Source of the DNA: Lysobacter sp. TY2-98
Lineage (GTDB): Bacteria; Pseudomonadota; Gammaproteobacteria; Xanthomonadales; Xanthomonadaceae
Reading direction: 5' to 3'
Assembly: GCF_003367355.1 (NCBI RefSeq)
Contig: NZ_CP031413.1
Location: 1,964,921 to 2,028,920, forward strand
DNA: 64,000 nt
The notes under the pieces are model-generated. The model searched no databases and had not been told where the DNA came from. It worked only from the letters and a program-made list of their open reading frames with translations. The translations under genes and the position numbers were made by a program. This document shows positions 14,326-22,481 of this stretch, piece by piece (position 1 is the first letter of the stretch; every line of letters starts with the position of its first letter).

Positions 14326-15903
14326 TCAGATCTGCTGGATCGACAGCACGCCCGGCGTCGCACGCAACGCGCCGAGCTGGGCGTCGTCGATTTCGCGATC
14401 GATGGTGATCGCGGCGCGCGCATAGCCGTCGCCCGCGGCACCGAGTGCGAAATTGATGATGTTGATGCCGGCCGCGCCGAGCTGCGACCCCACCGTGCCG
14501 ACCATGCCGGGGCGGTCCTCGTTGCGCATGAGCAGCACGTGCGCGAGCGGGTCGAATTCGATTTCAACGCCGTCGAGCGCCACCACGCGGGGTGCGCGGT
14601 GCAGCGTCGCATCGATCTCGCGTCGCACGGCACGATCCCCGTTGTCGCCCTCGATCGTGAGTCGCACGAGACGGTCGTAGCCATCACCTTCGCCGCCGAT
14701 CGTTTCCGACACTTCGAGCCCGCGCGCTGCGGCTTCCTGCAGCGCATTGACCGGCGTCACGCGTCCTGAAGCTGCACCGAGGAGTGATGCGACGAGCAGG
14801 CGCGTCAGCGGCCGCGTATCGAGTCCGTCGGTGCGGCCCGCGTAACGGATCTGCAGGCGCGTCGGCGCGGGGACGAGACGCGACGCGACGCGACCGAGCG
14901 CCGTCATCAGCGGCATCCATGGCCCAACTTCGCGTGCGGCTTCCGCGGTGAGTGGCGGCAGGTTGACGCAGCCGGCGACGGCACCGGTCGCGACGAAATC
15001 GATGATCTGGCGCGCGAGGATCGTGCTCACGGCCTGCTGCGCTTCACTGGTCGACGCGCCGAGATGCGGCGTCAGCACCAGGTTCGGATGCGCACGCAGC
15101 GACGAATCGGACGCGAGCGGCTCGGTCACGAACGTGTCGAGGGCCGCGCCGGCGAGGTGGCCCTCGTCGAGCAGGCGCAGCAACGCCGCTTCGTCGACGA
15201 GACCCCCGCGCGCCGCGTTGATCAGCATCGCGCCCGGCTTCATCGCGCGCATGCGCGCTTCCGACAGCAGGTTGGTCGTTTCCTTGGTGCGCGGGATGTG
15301 CAGCGTGATGATGTCGGCCCAGGCGAGCAGGTCGTCGAGCGCCATCAGCGGCACGCTGCCCTTGCCGGCCGCGGACGCCGGGAGGAACGGGTCGTACGCC
15401 GCGACCTCCATGCCGATGCCGCGTGCCTTGCGCGCGACCGTGCTGCCGATGCGCCCGAGGCCGATCACGCCGAGCCGCTTGCCTTCGAGTTCGAAGCCGG
15501 TGAGCCCCGCCTTCGGCCACTCGCCGGCCTTCATGCCGGCATCAGCGCGCGGGATGTGACGCGCGAGCGCGAACAGCAATGCGATCGCGTGCTCCGCCGC
15601 GGCGAGCGTGTTGCCGTCGGGCGCATTCATTACCGCGATGCCGCGTGCGGTGGCGGCGTCGACGTCGATCGTGTCGACGCCCGCGCCGGCACGGCCGATC
15701 ACCTTCAGCTTCGACGCCTGCGCCAGGGCGTCGGCCGGCACTTTCGTGGCCGATCGCACGAGCACTGCATCGACGTCGGCCAACGCCAGCGCGAGCGTGT
15801 CGGTGTCCTTGATCGGTTCGGGGGCGACGAGAACGTCCCAGCCCGCATTGCGGAACAGGGTCAGGCCGTCGTCATGGATTCCATCGCATGCCAGCACTCG
15901 CAT
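14326..15903 (-). CDS. serA: D-3-phosphoglycerate dehydrogenase SerA (long form)
   Basis: A 525-residue enzyme, first step of serine synthesis from 3-phosphoglycerate. Domains: substrate-binding halves (1-100 and 285-315), Rossmann NAD-binding domain with GVIGLGRIGSTVAR (about 145-158) and the catalytic Arg/Glu/His region (INAARGG; TPHLGASTSEAQ), an allosteric substrate-binding domain (about 320-450), and a C-terminal ACT domain (VLLMRNEDRPGMVGTVGSQL...). This is the Mycobacterium/Bacillus type long form rather than the 410-residue E. coli type, and ACT domains usually give serine feedback. A strongly structured leader lies upstream (15943-16051). Confidence 0.95.
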   Translation of the reverse strand: MRVLACDGIHDDGLTLFRNAGWDVLVAPEPIKDTDTLALALADVDAVLVRSATKVPADALAQASKLKVIGRAGAGVDTIDVDAATARGIAVMNAPDGNTLAAAEHAIALLFALARHIPRADAGMKAGEWPKAGLTGFELEGKRLGVIGLGRIGSTVARKARGIGMEVAAYDPFLPASAAGKGSVPLMALDDLLAWADIITLHIPRTKETTNLLSEARMRAMKPGAMLINAARGGLVDEAALLRLLDEGHLAGAALDTFVTEPLASDSSLRAHPNLVLTPHLGASTSEAQQAVSTILARQIIDFVATGAVAGCVNLPPLTAEAAREVGPWMPLMTALGRVASRLVPAPTRLQIRYAGRTDGLDTRPLTRLLVASLLGAASGRVTPVNALQEAAARGLEVSETIGGEGDGYDRLVRLTIEGDNGDRAVRREIDATLHRAPRVVALDGVEIEFDPLAHVLLMRNEDRPGMVGTVGSQLGAAGINIINFALGAAGDGYARAAITIDREIDDAQLGALRATPGVLSIQQI

Positions 15904-15942
15904 CGTCGTCGCGCTCCGTGTGTAGGGGATGCGCGGATGTCC

Positions 15943-16051
15943 TGCCAGCCGGCCGTCGGTTGCGTGAAACGCGCGACGGTAATGCGGTCCTGCGGTGCCA
16001 CGTGCATGCAGCGCATGCGATCTTGCGGTCGGGAGACGGGGCCGGCTGGCA
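15943..16051 (-). ncRNA. Candidate structured RNA leader upstream of serA
   Basis: A perfect 12-base inverted repeat (15943-15954 with 16040-16051) encloses 85 bases. Inside are two further hairpins: GCATGC-x3-GCATGC at 16004-16018, and CGTCG/CGACG (15954-15958 with 15974-15978) capped by GCGT/ACGC. Together they can form a three-way junction ending 39 bases before the serA ATG. It does not match any riboswitch class I can recall, and the strand is assumed from serA; it could act in the opposite direction for the DUF3224 gene. No sequence conservation data are available. Confidence 0.4.
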
Positions 16052-16160
16052 TGGGAATCCGCGACGCGTTGGAGCCTAGCAGACGCCTCGTTATCGACAA
16101 GCGCTGGCCGACCGGCGGCATCGGCGCGATGATCGGACCTCGACTTCCACGGAGACCGCC

Positions 16161-16559
16161 ATGCCCGTCGCCCACGGACGCTTCGACGTCAAACGCGCCC
16201 CGCAGGGCATGCTGGATCTGGGTGGCGACGCGCAGGCCATGCACCTGCGCTTCGACAAGACGTTCGAGGGCCCACTGCGGGCAACCAGCGTCGTGCACAT
16301 GGTGGCGGTGGGAACGGCGGTCGAAGGTTCGGCCGGTTATGTGGCGGTCGAACGCGTCGACGGCACGCTCGACGGCCGCAGCGGCGCGTTCTCGATGATG
16401 CATGTCGGCGTGATGGATCGCGGGCAGCCGTCACTGCGTGTGGAGGTGGTGCCGGATTCCGGTATGGGCGAGCTCGCCGGTCTGCGCGGTTCCATGAAGA
16501 TCGACATCACCAACGGCGAGCACGCCTACACGCTCGACTACACGCTGCCTACCGCCTGA
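16161..16559 (+). CDS. DUF3224 domain protein
   Basis: A 132-residue protein of the DUF3224 family, a small beta-barrel fold distantly like allene-oxide-cyclase barrels. Recognisable features are the opening GRFDVKR, the central MHLRFDKTFEGPL, and the C-terminal GTGEL-like segment DSGMGELAGLRGSMKI. It has no signal peptide, so it is cytosolic; function of the family is unknown. A clear ACGGAG ribosome-binding site precedes the ATG. The gene is divergent from serA. Confidence 0.8.
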   Translation: MPVAHGRFDVKRAPQGMLDLGGDAQAMHLRFDKTFEGPLRATSVVHMVAVGTAVEGSAGYVAVERVDGTLDGRSGAFSMMHVGVMDRGQPSLRVEVVPDSGMGELAGLRGSMKIDITNGEHAYTLDYTLPTA

Positions 16560-16580
16560 CCCGCTCACGTGACGCAATGA

Positions 16581-16608
16581 AAAAGGCCGGCGATTTCGCC
16601 GGCCTTTT
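16581..16608. terminator. Bidirectional intrinsic terminator
   Basis: A 12-base-pair stem (AAAAGGCCGGCG with CGCCGGCCTTTT) closes an ATTT loop between the convergent DUF3224 gene and the first S46 peptidase gene. The flanking A and T runs make it work for both strands. Confidence 0.9.
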
Positions 16609-16622
16609 CGCGTCCGAAGCCG

Positions 16623-18791
16623 TCACTTCTTCTCGGGAACGTTGAGCTCCTGCAACAGCTGCGGCGCCGGGTAGACCTCCTGCATGATCCAGCGCATGTA
16701 GCGCTGGTCGACCGAAATCATGCGCGTCATCGCGGGATCGAACACCCAGTTGCTGCTGACCGACTCCCAGTTGCCGTCGAACGCAAGACCGACGAGCTTG
16801 CCCTGCGCGTCCAGCACCGGTGAGCCCGAATTGCCGCCGGTGATGTCGAGGTCGGACAGGAAGTTCACCGGCACCGTGCCGAGGCGCCGATCGGCGAGCC
16901 CCCCGTAGTTCTTCGCGCGGATCGCATCAAGTTCCACCTGCGGCGCGTCGAACGGCTCCTTGCCCGTCGCCTTCTCCGCGACCTGCTCCAGCGTGGTGAA
17001 CGAGGGCTGCTTGGCGCGGTCAGGCTTCGTGTAGCCCGTCACGTGGCCATAGGTGATGCGCAGCGACGAGTTGGCATCCGGATACACCGCCTGCCCGTGC
17101 GACTTGCGGTAGTCGGCAATCGCCTGCAGCACGGCCGGACGAGCGACCAACGAATCGCCCGCGCGCGTCTTGGCTTCTTCTTCCAGACGCAGCACGTCCG
17201 GCATCACCGCCACGGCGAACTGGATCGCCGGATCCTTCGACTTCTCCAGCGACGCGCGATCGGCCGACAGCAGCGCGACGCGTGCCTGCGTGTCGCCGAG
17301 GCGCGTCTTGGCGAGGCGGTCGAGCGCTTTGTCGACCGCCTTGGCATCCGTCCCGCCCAACCACTTGTCGAGCGAGGCGATGTGTTCCGCCGCCGGCAAC
17401 TTCGCGTATTCGCGCAGCCAGTAGCCGATGAGCTCACGGTCCATCTGCGGCTGGTAACGACGCTCCATCTGCCGCAGCGCACCTTCCAGCGACGGCATGT
17501 CGCGCTGCATGTAGCCGGCTTCGCGATCGTTGTCGGGCTTCTCGCGTTCGATCGACGTGCGATAGATCTGCATCGCCGCGCCGAGGACGCCCGTGCTGCG
17601 CAGCTGGCCGAAGGCAATGTCGCGCTCGCGATGGGCACGCGCTTCCTCGCCGAGCTGCTCCAGACGCTCGTACGCGGCGAGACCCGCTTCGCCGCGCGCG
17701 CCCTGGCCGCGCAGCCATGCGAGCACCGCTTCGTCCTCGCGATGCTTGCGCGTGCCGGCGTCGATGCGGCGGAAGCCTTCGAGCTGGCCGTCGTAATTCT
17801 TCAGCGTGTTCTGCCAGCCGCGCACCGTCGCCGCGTACTTCACGGCGATATCCGGATTGCGGCGACCGGCGTTCTCCACCAGCGCGACGAGGTTCTTGTA
17901 GTGACGGCTGACGGTCGGATACGTCCAGTTCGACGTCGCATCGAATTCGCTCGCGAGCGCGTAGCGGCTGGTGCTGCCGGGATACCCCGCCACCATCACG
18001 AAGTCGCCCTCGCCCAGCGGCTTGTCGGCGATCTTCAGGAAATGCTTCGGCGTATACGGCACGTTGTCGGGCGAGTACGCGGCCGGACGACCGTCCTTGC
18101 CGACGTAAGCGCGATAGAACGAGAAATCGCCGGTGTGGCGCGGCCACATCCAGTTGTCGACCTCGCCACCGTAGTTGCCGACGCTGCGTGGCGGCGCGTA
18201 GACGAGGCGGACGTCCTTGATCTCGAGATTCTTGAACAGGCGATACGTGTTGCCGCCGCTGAAGCTGTACAGGCGGCAGCGGTACCCGGTCGGCGCTTCG
18301 CAGTCGGCGACAAGCTTCTTCTCGATCGCATCGAGCGCCTTCGTCCGGCCCAGCGCATCCGGCGCATCGGCGATCGCTGCCTTCACCGTCTTGGTCACGT
18401 CCTGTATCGAATCGAGCGCGTAGATGCGTGCGTTCGGGCCGGCGGAGAGTTCCTCGCCCGGCGTCGTCGCGTTGAAGCCGGTTTCGATGAGGTTCTTCTG
18501 GGCTGAGGAATTCAGCTGGATCGCGCCGTAGGCGCAGTGATGATTGGTGACGACGAGACCCTTCGGCGAGACGAAGCTCGCCGTGCAGCCACCGAGCGAC
18601 ACCACCGACGCCATCGGATCGCCCGTCAGATCCGCGAGCTGGCGCGCGTCGAGCTTCAGGCCCACCTTCTTCAGCTGCGCGGAGATTTCCGGCAATTGCT
18701 GCGGCACCCACATGCCTTCGACCGCGACCGCGCTCGTGGAAATGGCCGCGAGCGCGGCGAACGTGGCGAGGGCGAGGCGGTGCATGCGCAT
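16623..18791 (-). CDS. S46 family dipeptidyl-peptidase, DPP7-type
   Basis: A 722-residue exported serine exopeptidase that removes N-terminal dipeptides from peptides in the periplasm. A signal peptide (hydrophobic to about residue 23, STSAVA) is followed by the chymotrypsin-like fold with the catalytic His in VVTNHHCAYGAIQ, Asp in WMWPRHTGDF and Ser in [10 protein letters not shown], and the alpha-helical lid domain between. Eighteen residues after the catalytic Ser lies Gly (FDGNW), the residue that marks DPP7, which prefers hydrophobic P1 residues, in contrast to Arg in Asp/Glu-specific DPP11. Length matches the family (about 720). A second paralogue lies upstream in tandem. Confidence 0.93.
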   Translation of the reverse strand: MRMHRLALATFAALAAISTSAVAVEGMWVPQQLPEISAQLKKVGLKLDARQLADLTGDPMASVVSLGGCTASFVSPKGLVVTNHHCAYGAIQLNSSAQKNLIETGFNATTPGEELSAGPNARIYALDSIQDVTKTVKAAIADAPDALGRTKALDAIEKKLVADCEAPTGYRCRLYSFSGGNTYRLFKNLEIKDVRLVYAPPRSVGNYGGEVDNWMWPRHTGDFSFYRAYVGKDGRPAAYSPDNVPYTPKHFLKIADKPLGEGDFVMVAGYPGSTSRYALASEFDATSNWTYPTVSRHYKNLVALVENAGRRNPDIAVKYAATVRGWQNTLKNYDGQLEGFRRIDAGTRKHREDEAVLAWLRGQGARGEAGLAAYERLEQLGEEARAHRERDIAFGQLRSTGVLGAAMQIYRTSIEREKPDNDREAGYMQRDMPSLEGALRQMERRYQPQMDRELIGYWLREYAKLPAAEHIASLDKWLGGTDAKAVDKALDRLAKTRLGDTQARVALLSADRASLEKSKDPAIQFAVAVMPDVLRLEEEAKTRAGDSLVARPAVLQAIADYRKSHGQAVYPDANSSLRITYGHVTGYTKPDRAKQPSFTTLEQVAEKATGKEPFDAPQVELDAIRAKNYGGLADRRLGTVPVNFLSDLDITGGNSGSPVLDAQGKLVGLAFDGNWESVSSNWVFDPAMTRMISVDQRYMRWIMQEVYPAPQLLQELNVPEKK

Positions 18792-18880: not shown

Positions 18881-21028
18881 TCATTCCGCGGGCAGGCCCA
18901 TTTCCGCGAGGAGCTGCGGCGCCGGATACACCTTCGCCATCAGCCAGCGCATGTAACGCATGTCGACATGAATGGCGCGCTTGTAACGCGGGTCGTACAT
19001 CCAGCTCGCACTCACCGCTTCCCAGTTGCTGTCGAAGTTCAGCGCGATGAGCTTGCCATCCGCGTCGAGCACCGGTGATCCCGAATTGCCGCCAGTTGTG
19101 TCGAGATCGGTCAGGATGTCGACGGTCTGCGTGTTCAGCTTGGGATCGGCGGTGCTGCCGAAATCGCCCTTGGCGATCGCGTCGCGGAGCGGCTTCGGCG
19201 CATCGAATGGCTTCACGCCGGTGTGCTTTTCGGTGATGCCGGCCACCGTCGTCACCGGGACGTAGTGCACGCCGTCGCGCGGATCCATGCCACGCAGGTT
19301 GCCGTAGCTGACGCGCAGCGTGGAGTTCGCGTCCGGATACACCGCACGGCCCTGCGACTTCCGGTACGCGATCAGCGCCTTCATGTACGACGGCCGCAGA
19401 CGCAGCAGCTCGCCATCGCGCACCTTCGCCTCGTCCTCGATGCGCAGGAGCGCGGGCTGCAGCGTTGCCGCGGCGCGCAGGAGCGGATCGGGGTCGGTGG
19501 ACAGCGACGCCGCGTCGCTCGACATCGCGGCCAGGCGTGTCGCCTCGTCGCCGAGCTTGGTGCCGGCGTAGAGGGCGTCGAGGCGCGTACGCAGCTCGTC
19601 CGGTGTACGACCGAATACCGCATCGACTTCAGTGACGTGCTGCGCCGCCGGCAGCGTCTGGTACTGCGACACAAGATACGTCAGCACCGCCTTCTCGACC
19701 GCCGGATCGAATCGACGCTGCACCTGCTTCATCTGCCCGGTAATCAGCGCTTCGTCGCGCTGCTGATAGCCGAGTTCACGTTGCGCGTCCGGCTTGGCGC
19801 GTTCGTGTGCGAGACGCTGCAGCGTGATGGCAGCGCGCATCAGCTGCGTCTGCGACCGGATCATGCCGAGCAGCTGGTCGCGGTCGCGCACGGTGGCGGC
19901 CTGGTCGAGCAGCGCCTGCACCGCGGCGATGTCGGCGCGCGTCGCCTTCGCGGAAGGCTGCTTCGCCAGCCACGCGAGCATCTGCGCTTCGTCGTTCTTG
20001 CGCACGGTGGCCGCATCGCTGCGACGCAGGCCATCCAGTTCGCCCTGCGCGCGCTTCAGCGTGTTCTTCAGGCTCTGCACCTGCGAGGCGTAGAGCACCT
20101 TCGCCTCGGGTGTCGCGGCGGATTTGTCGATCGTGTCGATGACGCCCTGGCTCAGCGCGACGCGCGTCGGCAGCTGCCAGCCGATCTGCTGCACGAATTC
20201 GCTGGCCATGCGATGGCGGTAAGTGATGCCTGGATAGCCCGCGAGCATCGCAAAGTCGCCCTCGCCGACGTTACGCGTCGACACCTGCAGATGCGCCGGC
20301 GGGTTGTAGGGCACGTTGTCCGCGCTGTAGTCGGCCGGCTTGCCGTCGCGACCGACATAGGCGCGCAGCACGGTGAAGTCGCCGGAGTGACGCGGCCACA
20401 CGAAGTTGTCGACCTCGTCGCCGTAGTTGCCGATGGAATCCGGCGGCGCGTAGACGAGGCGGATATCGCGCAGCTCGAGCTGGCGGATCAGGTAGAAGTC
20501 GGTGCCGTAGTACATGTTGGCGACGCTGCAGCGGATGCCCGCCTCGCGCTCGCAGTCGGCGATCGCGGCCTTCGTCGCGGCGTCGACAGCGTCGTAGTAC
20601 GCACGGCCGCTCTTGCCCTTCGCGCCGGCGAGGATGCGGTCGGTGATGCGATCGAAACCGGTGGTCACCAGCACACGGTAGTCCGGCGCGGCGGGCAGTT
20701 CCTCGGCGCGGGTCTTGGCGACGTAGCCGTTGCCGATCAGGTCGCGATCGGCTCGACTGTTGTACTGGATGACCGGGAACGCGACGTGGTGGTTGGTCAG
20801 CACCAGACCGTCCTTCGACACGAACGCGCCGGTCGCACCGCCCACCTTCACCACGGCACTGAGCGGCGGACGCGTGAGGTCGGCGAGCGCGGCGGGGTCG
20901 CCTTCGAAGCCGGCGGCCTTCAGCTGCGGTGCGAGGTCGGGAAGTTGTGACGGCATCCACATGCCTTCCGACGCGACGGCCGGGGCGATGGACAGGGACA
21001 GGGCGGTAGCGAGCAGACGGCGGCGCAT
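18881..21028 (-). CDS. S46 family dipeptidyl-peptidase, atypical specificity residue
   Basis: A 715-residue paralogue of the next gene with signal peptide ([20 protein letters not shown]). Catalytic elements: [13 protein letters not shown] (His), [10 protein letters not shown] (Asp) and [10 protein letters not shown] (Ser). At the position 18 residues after the catalytic Ser, which is Gly in DPP7 and Arg in DPP11, this protein has Ser (FDSNW), so its substrate preference may differ. The His motif also has Val where its neighbour has Cys. The ATG at 21028 is preceded by AAGGGAA; the open frame running further upstream is antisense to tdh and is not part of the gene. There is an 89-bp gap before the downstream paralogue. 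Confidence 0.92.
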
Positions 21029-21111
21029 GGTGGTTCCCTTCGATCGGCCGCCGACCATAGCGGCAGCGACGCGGGCGCGGCAATCCGGCAAGGCCTTCAG
21101 GCGGGCGTCCG

Positions 21112-21117
21112 TATAAT
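21112..21117 (+). promoter_or_regulatory. Likely -10 element of tdh
   Basis: A perfect TATAAT lies 40 bp upstream of the tdh ATG in the 129-bp gap shared with the divergent S46 gene. No convincing -35 hexamer is visible 16-18 bp upstream, so an activator or a weak promoter is likely. Confidence 0.45.
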
Positions 21118-21157
21118 TCGCGCTCCATCGCGCACCGCGCGTCGCAGGCCTTCCGCA

Positions 21158-22219
21158 ATGTCCGAGACCGCCACCCTCTCCCCCACCGCGCCGACGATGC
21201 GCGCCCTCGTGAAGCGCGAAGCCGCCAAGGGCATCTGGATGGAGGAGGTGCCGGTGCCGGTGCCCAGCCCGAACGAGGTGCTGATCAAGTTGGAGAAGAC
21301 CGCGATCTGCGGCACCGACCTGCACATCTACATGTGGGACGAGTGGAGCCAGCGCACGATCAAGCCGGGCCTGGTGATCGGTCATGAATTCGTCGGCCGC
21401 ATCGCGGCGCTCGGCACCGGCGTGACGGGCTACAGCGTCGGCCAGCGCGTGTCGGCCGAAGGCCACATCGTCTGCGGCCACTGCCGCAACTGCCGCGCGG
21501 GCAAGCAGCACCTCTGCCCCAACACGGTCGGCATCGGCGTGAACCGCAACGGCGCGTTCGCGGAATACATCGTGATGCCGGCTTCGAACCTGTGGCCGAT
21601 CCCGGACCAGATCCCGAGCGAGCTGGCCGCGTTCTTCGATCCTTACGGCAACGCCGCGCACTGCGCGCTGGAATTCGACGTCGTCGGCGAAGACGTCCTG
21701 ATCACCGGCGCAGGCCCGATCGGCATCATCGCCGCGGGCATCTGCAAGCACATCGGCGCCCGCAACGTCGTCGTCACCGACGTCAACGACTACCGCCTGA
21801 AGCTCGCCGCGGACATGGGCGCGACGCGCGTGGTCAACGTCGCGAACACCTCGCTCAAGGACGTCATGAAGGACCTCCACATGGAGGGCTTCGACGTCGG
21901 CCTCGAGATGAGCGGCAATCCACGCGCGTTCAATGACATGCTCGACTGCATGTACAACGGCGGCAAGATCGCGATGCTCGGCATCATGCCCAAGGGCGCC
22001 GGCGCCGACTGGGACAAGATCATCTTCAAGGGGCTCACGCTGCACGGCATCTACGGCCGCCGCATGTACGAGACCTGGTACAAGATGACGCAGCTCGTGC
22101 TCAGCGGCTTCCCGCTCGGCAAGGTGCTGACGCATCAGTTGCCCGTCGACCGTTTCCAGGAAGGCTTCGACCTGATGGAAGCCGGCAAGAGCGGCAAGAT
22201 CGTCCTGAGCTGGAACTGA
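21158..22219 (+). CDS. tdh: L-threonine 3-dehydrogenase
   Basis: A 353-residue zinc-dependent medium-chain dehydrogenase that oxidises L-threonine to 2-amino-3-ketobutyrate with NAD. Catalytic zinc ligands are in [10 protein letters not shown] and GHEFVG; the four-Cys structural zinc loop is [15 protein letters not shown]; the cofactor motif is [11 protein letters not shown]. It begins with a 13-residue extension before MRALVKREA, the usual start in E. coli, and either ATG could be used. It feeds Kbl, encoded two genes downstream; between them is a small membrane protein gene 10 bp after the tdh stop. Confidence 0.95.
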
Positions 22220-22229
22220 GGACGCGACG

Positions 22230-22481
22230 ATGGGTTTCGTGCTCATCGTCCTCGTCATCGTGATCGCGGGCTGGGTGTTCCTGGCCCGCAACGGCAGTAC
22301 TGGCACTGGGACGTCGAGCTCGATGTCCGACGACTACGTGCCGGTGAACGCGTACGACAATCCGTACGACACCAACGAAAACAACGATCGGCCGTTCGAG
22401 CCCGATAGCTGCGAAGACACGTCCGACGACTCGTCGTCGAGCGACACGTGCGACAGCGGCGACAGCGCCAGCAGCGACTGA
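22230..22481 (+). CDS. Small membrane protein with Ser/Asp-rich acidic tail
   Basis: An 83-residue protein I do not recognise. Residues 3-19 (FVLIVLVIVIAGWVFLA) form one membrane helix or uncleaved signal anchor; the rest is strongly acidic and disordered, ending in a Ser/Asp-rich segment with two cysteines (DSCEDTSDD...SDTCDSGD). It sits between tdh and kbl with only 10 and 27 bp to its neighbours, with a plausible ribosome-binding site (GAGGAC), so it is co-translated with the threonine degradation enzymes. The acidic tail may bind cations or carry modification, but no function can be stated. Confidence 0.65.
   Translation: MGFVLIVLVIVIAGWVFLARNGSTGTGTSSSMSDDYVPVNAYDNPYDTNENNDRPFEPDSCEDTSDDSSSSDTCDSGDSASSD

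Follow-up and report, generated by a model that had tools for sequence, protein, structure and literature searches.

The Locus and the Inverted Repeat

The leader of serA in Lysobacter sp. TY2-98 raises the question of whether a perfect inverted repeat upstream of the gene marks a functional RNA and, if so, in which fold and with what effect. In the window, i.e., the whole stretch of 64,000 nucleotides that was analysed, serA lies at 14326–15903 on the minus strand and encodes 525 aa; its product is, as we take it, the first enzyme of serine synthesis. An earlier note on this DNA had described a perfect 12-base repeat 39 bases before the serA ATG, and both points were borne out: the arms at 15943–15954 and 16040–16051 are complementary at 12/12 nt (100%) with 85 nt between them, and the gap between the end of the repeat and the ATG is 39 nt. 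The note had further suspected that the pairing goes beyond the effect of GC content. The minus-strand fold of the 109-nt region has −50.8 kcal/mol (z −2.63; 4 of 200 dinucleotide shuffles as good), the plus-strand fold has −60.5 (z −2.69; 1 of 200), and the duplex of the hairpin block described below with the rest of the leader in the window has −47.3, where the shuffles average −32.1 (z −4.2, 0 of 100). Since fold and duplex scores beat the shuffles, folding of the repeat region is above chance, as suspected. The interval 15943–16051 covers only part of the conserved element, which extends to about 16066 (Table 1).

Two other features of the neighbourhood were observed by eye. At 16580–16607, a strong GGCCGGCGAUUUCGCCGGCC hairpin with flanking A and T runs sits between the DUF3224 gene and a convergent peptidase gene and is probably a two-way terminator. 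The adjacent minus-strand ORFs 16623–18791 and 18881–22306 have similar translations and are probably paralogous serine peptidases.

Table 1. Features of the serA leader in the window, with positions and the basis of each assignment.
Feature	Positions	Strand	Basis or remark
−35-like hexamer TTGTCG, 16 nt before −10	16095–16100	−	by eye
−10-like hexamer TAGGCT	16073–16078	−	by eye; loose box in relatives
Conserved receptor-like hairpin, probable serA mRNA 5′ end	16028–16065	−	model R1 match 16027–16066 (converted from genome coordinates), E 1.2e-12
P1 5′ strand, GUCGCGGA, one bulged base	16058–16065	−	alignment
Internal loop 5′ side, UUCCCAU (relatives YUCCCAU)	16051–16057	−	alignment
P2 stem-loop GCC-AGCC-GGC	16041–16050	−	alignment and shuffle test
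Internal loop 3′ side, CCCGUC (relatives MCCGUY)	16035–16040	−	alignment
P1 3′ strand, UCCCGAC	16028–16034	−	alignment
Variable spacer with inner hairpins	15955–16027	−	not conserved
3′ arm of 12-bp repeat, GGCCGGCUGGCA	15943–15954	−	contains GCCGGC core
AUCCGCG, pairs with CGCGGAU at 16057–16063, extends competing long helix	15932–15938	−	folding, duplex energy
Predicted hairpin burying the Shine-Dalgarno region, CGCGC-A-UCC / GGAGCGCG	15910–15935	−	prediction only; 4-nt overlap with long helix
Shine-Dalgarno GGAG of serA	15914–15917	−	sequence

The Conserved Hairpin

In total, 95 serA relatives were confirmed, the nearest being that of Lysobacter terrigena (98% identity), and 80 of these loci were kept for comparison of the leaders. 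A nearly invariant block was found in 77 distinct leaders and one duplicate (L033), the leaders of L080 and L094 being without it. Later counts refer to 78 leaders, namely 76 of the 77 distinct ones, the duplicate and the window; the Thermomonas leader L049, whose P1 is without GGA, was left out. The altered P1 of L049 (2353–2400), GUCACGA versus UCCUGAC, shows an apparent compensating change.

The conserved element is a hairpin of about 40 nt. Forty-eight distinct hairpins, drawn from 49 pattern matches in the collected loci after removal of L121 (a second match in the genome of the window, see below), need a single gap column in their alignment and follow the same order: P1, YUCCCAU, P2 with a short loop, MCCGUY and the 3′ strand of P1. 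The internal loop is nearly invariant and pyrimidine-rich. The P2 stem occurs as GCC/GGC, GCU/AGC or GCG/CGC, and in 44 distinct rows its third pair is C–G in 30, G–C in 7 and U–A in 7, with none broken. In a shuffle test of five measures, standard pairs filled 90.4% of the pair cells versus 83.4% in the shuffles (0 of 500 as high), and two measures, pairs with double changes (127 of 500 shuffles) and pair types (242 of 500), were not above chance.

In a fixed alignment, 71% of the cells of the outer P1 helix are paired. With a movable bulge, the P1 pair adjoining GGA is G–C in 56, U–A in 11, A–U in 10 and C–G in 1 of the 78 leaders; here the bulge was placed in each sequence so as to give the most pairing, a choice that benefits the two middle P1 pairs. 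In a tree-based test, made with the serA tree and the 56 Lysobacter-type sequences only, the second P1 pair ranked first among the 36 variable column pairs, and none of 4000 simulations reached its value; no covariation was observed for the outermost P1 pair, this test included. Across all clades, clade-wide changes also couple unpaired columns. Since such changes and the choice of bulge bias the other tests, the claim of covariation is based on two results, namely that for the second P1 pair among Lysobacter-type sequences alone and that of the shuffle test of the 48 hairpins. Covarying pairs, which the earlier note had wanted to see among homologues, are therefore present, and the element is, as far as the alignments tell, a conserved, covarying domain of receptor-like kind. 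When 36 hand-picked leaders out of the 77 were given to RNAalifold, 10 pairs were predicted within the 5′ block and the long helix discussed below did not appear; the spacer is unalignable.

The hairpin probably forms the very start of the serA mRNA. Upstream regions of 77 relatives, of which 55 are Lysobacter-type, were aligned on the block. In the Lysobacter-type set, the 50 bases before the block hold no more than about 0.7 bits per position, and conservation jumps to 2.0 bits from the second base of the block. A loose −10-like box, TRNNYT, lies 5–10 nt before the block in 65 of the 77 relatives and is missing from the stretch scanned in 6, the pattern having been devised after sight of the sequences. 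The sharp onset of conservation and the box just before it point to a start at the hairpin. A start downstream of 15943, against which the earlier note had warned, appears unlikely in view of the promoter-like −10 hexamer upstream of the repeat.

The Proposed Competing Long Helix

The 5′ arm of the 12-bp repeat consists of the hairpin's own P2 and flanking loop bases. A complementary segment follows the hairpin in many leaders, which are related, so that the counts are not independent. Of the 56 Lysobacter-type leaders, 55 have GCCGGC downstream of the hairpin, where 8.8 were expected; this core stands about 48 nt before the ATG (range 45–66). In 50 of the 56 (1.2 expected) it runs on into UCCGY, which is complementary to the opening bases of the block. 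Seven of the remaining 22 leaders (0.3 expected) carry a different segment, GCATGGG, at 55–72 nt before the ATG; this is complementary to the invariant CCCAUGC of the hairpin. The long-range duplex energy has a mean z of −2.0 over 77 leaders and is below −2 in 37 of them; in several leader groups the complementarity is near or above the shuffled mean (z near zero or positive). Because the second segment is complementary to the 5′ strand of the hairpin, the two folds would be mutually exclusive, and the best reading of the 12-bp repeat is that of an alternative fold competing with the conserved hairpin. As arm counts and duplex z differ by group, the competition appears strong in the window's lineage and partial elsewhere, and the hairpin seems to be the more constant part.

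The consequence for translation was approached by two-state folding of 75 leaders with soft constraints. By energy, 50 of these favour the long helix and 14 the hairpin; for the window the values are −76.4 and −69.4 kcal/mol, respectively. Compared with the hairpin, the long helix leaves the Shine-Dalgarno region more open in 30 of the 75 leaders and less open in 5; in the window the openness is 0.41 with the long helix versus 0.12 with the hairpin (constrained folds). In the unconstrained fold of the window, the 12-bp helix and the Shine-Dalgarno hairpin coexist. There is a moderate excess of CUCC just ahead of GGAG (42 of 73 leaders, 24.7 expected), and a final hairpin sequestering the ribosome site is predicted in some leaders. 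From these models we infer, as the weakest step of the argument, that the receptor hairpin may lower serA translation.

Several leaders have unusual layouts. In Luteimonas lumbrici (L089, 2458–2498; L113 has the same sequence), the 42-nt leader is the hairpin alone, ending 2 nt before the serA ATG, and neither a Shine-Dalgarno sequence nor a competing arm was found in it. In the metagenome-assembled genome L080 (2300–2510), the leader is seemingly without the spacer and the hairpin's 3′ half, which leaves CCCATGC and GCATGGG close together, so that only the competing helix can form; this may be an assembly error. Leaders from Arenimonas and one mislabelled-looking bin (L053, L054, L058, L061, L063, L065, L068 and L069) measure about 290 nt and show additional conserved stretches downstream of the hairpin, and the open frame of 67–68 codons that runs through leaders of this type has no coding signature.

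Linkage to serA

The block pattern matched 88 of 297 family genomes, nearly always once, and the reversed control pattern gave no match in any genome row of the same scan. The window's own genome gave a second pattern match (L121), which is shorter in its middle and absent from the matches of model R1; it was treated as chance and not as a true copy. With model R1, a strong match (E ≤ 6.2e-6) was obtained in 62 of 149 family genomes, one each, and the next family matches come only from E 0.17 (range 0.17–0.47). A SerA search of the same 149 genomes found 64 at E ≤ 1e-100. The hairpin is carried by 62 of these 64, and the 85 genomes that lack this serA are all without it (Fisher p 3.5e-40, with no correction for relatedness); all 62 hairpins lie on the contig and strand of serA, 2–257 nt upstream. 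The element holds a constant position upstream of one metabolic gene. The two serA genomes in which it is absent (G032 and G125) belong to one genus; a genome of the window's own genus (G001, 99% complete) has neither the hairpin nor a match of this SerA, the latter at E 1e-60 or 1e-100. The earlier note had also considered a regulator of DUF3224 on the opposite strand, a candidate that is not supported, DUF3224 having been found in only 32 of the 80 serA loci, some of which were fetched with short flanks, as against 78 of 80 for the conserved block.

Outside the family, no strong match was found in samples of the order (250 genomes), class (369) and phylum (299), searched with strict filters such that rare or distant copies could escape; the 9 strong matches in the order sample are all within the family. 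Weak matches outside it (E 0.006–0.04) came from five genomes. By eye, one lies at the start of a helicase-like gene (L163), one inside an apparent gene (L164) and one adjoins a small ORF (L197), with no serA seen near these three; the others are in G429 and G383. This SerA was not found at E 1e-60 in G429, G492 or G383.

Judged by comparative analysis, the element is a conserved cis-regulatory leader RNA of serA and apparently a new RNA family. Of the cis-regulator that the earlier note thought possible on the serA transcript, the structured element holds, through covariation and near-perfect co-occurrence with serA, and the proposed shape does not.

Relation to Known Leader RNAs

That the RNA belongs to no recognised class, as the earlier note had it, agrees with the search of Rfam 15, which gave no match to the window at gathering score or at lax E (up to 5 in 15850–16200 and up to 10 in 16020–16075). 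The covariance model of the serC motif (RF00517) did not match the serA leader at lax E, and its best match in the whole genome is elsewhere (16.6 bits, E 0.48, cut-off 35). The serC motif is described from alpha-proteobacteria, where it precedes serC–serA operons and begins at the predicted start of transcription; a hairpin that sequesters the ribosome site was proposed for it, and the element was unaffected by L-serine, L-threonine and five PLP-related compounds (PMC1273637). Both are short leader RNAs of serine-synthesis genes; the serA leader differs in its sequence, in its association with serA alone, in its long variable spacer and in its competing 5′/3′ helix. The likeness to the ilvB-II uORF leader of Corynebacterium is that of a conserved leader of an amino-acid gene with an invariant start codon (PMC10272879). 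Unlike it, the serA leader shows no conserved short reading frame with a nearby stop and a coding signature, such as marks a uORF attenuator.

Like translational riboswitches, the serA leader has a conserved receptor-like domain, probably at the 5′ end of the mRNA, is tied to one metabolic gene and, at least in Lysobacter-type leaders, may form exclusive folds near the ribosome site; the differences are the pyrimidine-rich loop here and the lack of a match to the riboswitch families of Rfam 15. No description of this leader was found among the titles and abstract starts listed. The main texts of the 26-genome and 50-genome screens, in the portions available, make no mention of serA, serine, Xanthomonad, Lysobacter or Stenotrophomonas, and in the available portion of the 104-motif paper the sole match to serA is an author's name. 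With neither Rfam 15 nor the literature screened giving a match, the RNA is apparently undescribed.

Proposed Mechanism and Alternatives

We propose that the leader works as a two-state, riboswitch-like switch of serA translation, a reading for which we see the balance as even. The hairpin at the very 5′ end of the mRNA would form first. A small molecule of serine, glycine or one-carbon metabolism could then bind the internal loop and hold the hairpin, so that the Shine-Dalgarno region would stay buried and serA would be off; without the ligand, the 3′ arm would invade the hairpin and translation of serA would rise. The leaders made of the hairpin alone (L089/L113) count against a two-state switch, as do the 14 of 75 leaders in which the hairpin state is the more stable. 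In its most specific form, the proposal is that of a new riboswitch class: serine, or a metabolite close to it in the pathway, would be sensed by the 40-nt hairpin itself, and serA translation would be switched as the segment before the start codon exchanges strands with the 5′ end of the mRNA. We offer this form tentatively, as a possibility somewhat short of probable. We know of no natural serine riboswitch. Metabolite aptamers seldom have a loop rich in pyrimidines, which counts against a metabolite as the ligand.

The same two-state leader could instead have a protein as its sensor, SerA itself or a dedicated regulator bound at the hairpin. The association with a single gene and the small hairpin with its fixed internal loop fit this, and the authors of the serC element raised a protein sensor after the null results with compounds (PMC1273637); the competing helix, however, suits a metabolite or a protein receptor alike, and we consider the protein rather unlikely. 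A small RNA that acts in trans, identical with the 5′ piece or made from it and pairing through its C-rich loop with G-rich ribosome sites, is improbable, as is a role of the piece as the target of such an RNA: C-rich seed loops are known from other small RNAs and the invariant UCCCAU and CCCGUYUCC segments are C-rich, but none of the 85 family genomes without this serA keeps the element, which argues for a function in cis. If the block were a DNA site, an operator or a promoter element, its place immediately after the −10 box would be explained. Such a site would not be expected to change its stem positions in complementary pairs or to keep a segment 45–72 nt before the ATG complementary, and we regard it as very improbable.

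Highly improbable, too, is a leader peptide starting at the invariant AUG of the loop, with serA under attenuation or coupling. This AUG is present in 48 of 48 distinct hairpins, its ORF in L089 stops 2 nt before the serA ATG, and conserved leader regions have proved to be uORFs before, according to one report (PMC10272879). Against this, the AUG falls in all three frames relative to serA (20, 29 and 29 of 78), the frame shifts between lineages, the ORF runs from 8 to more than 300 codons with its stop by the serA start in only 39 of 78, and no excess of third-position changes was found in the three groups tested. The three-way junction closed by the 12-bp stem, which the earlier note put forward and which nearly coincides with the fold of lowest predicted energy for the window, is barely credible as the functional fold and was rejected as the conserved one. 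The exact repeat is present in 6 of 78 leaders, and the junction excludes the covarying hairpin. Its two inner hairpins are indeed predicted for the window's sequence, but they lie in a spacer that varies widely in length and sequence among relatives.

Significance

The serA leader provides a compact RNA family that, throughout one bacterial family, accompanies a single biosynthetic gene almost without exception. Natural variants, with the hairpin alone in Luteimonas lumbrici (L089) and the arms of the competing helix alone in L080, are useful in this respect, and the short RNA may serve for asking whether RNA senses metabolites of the serine pathway directly.
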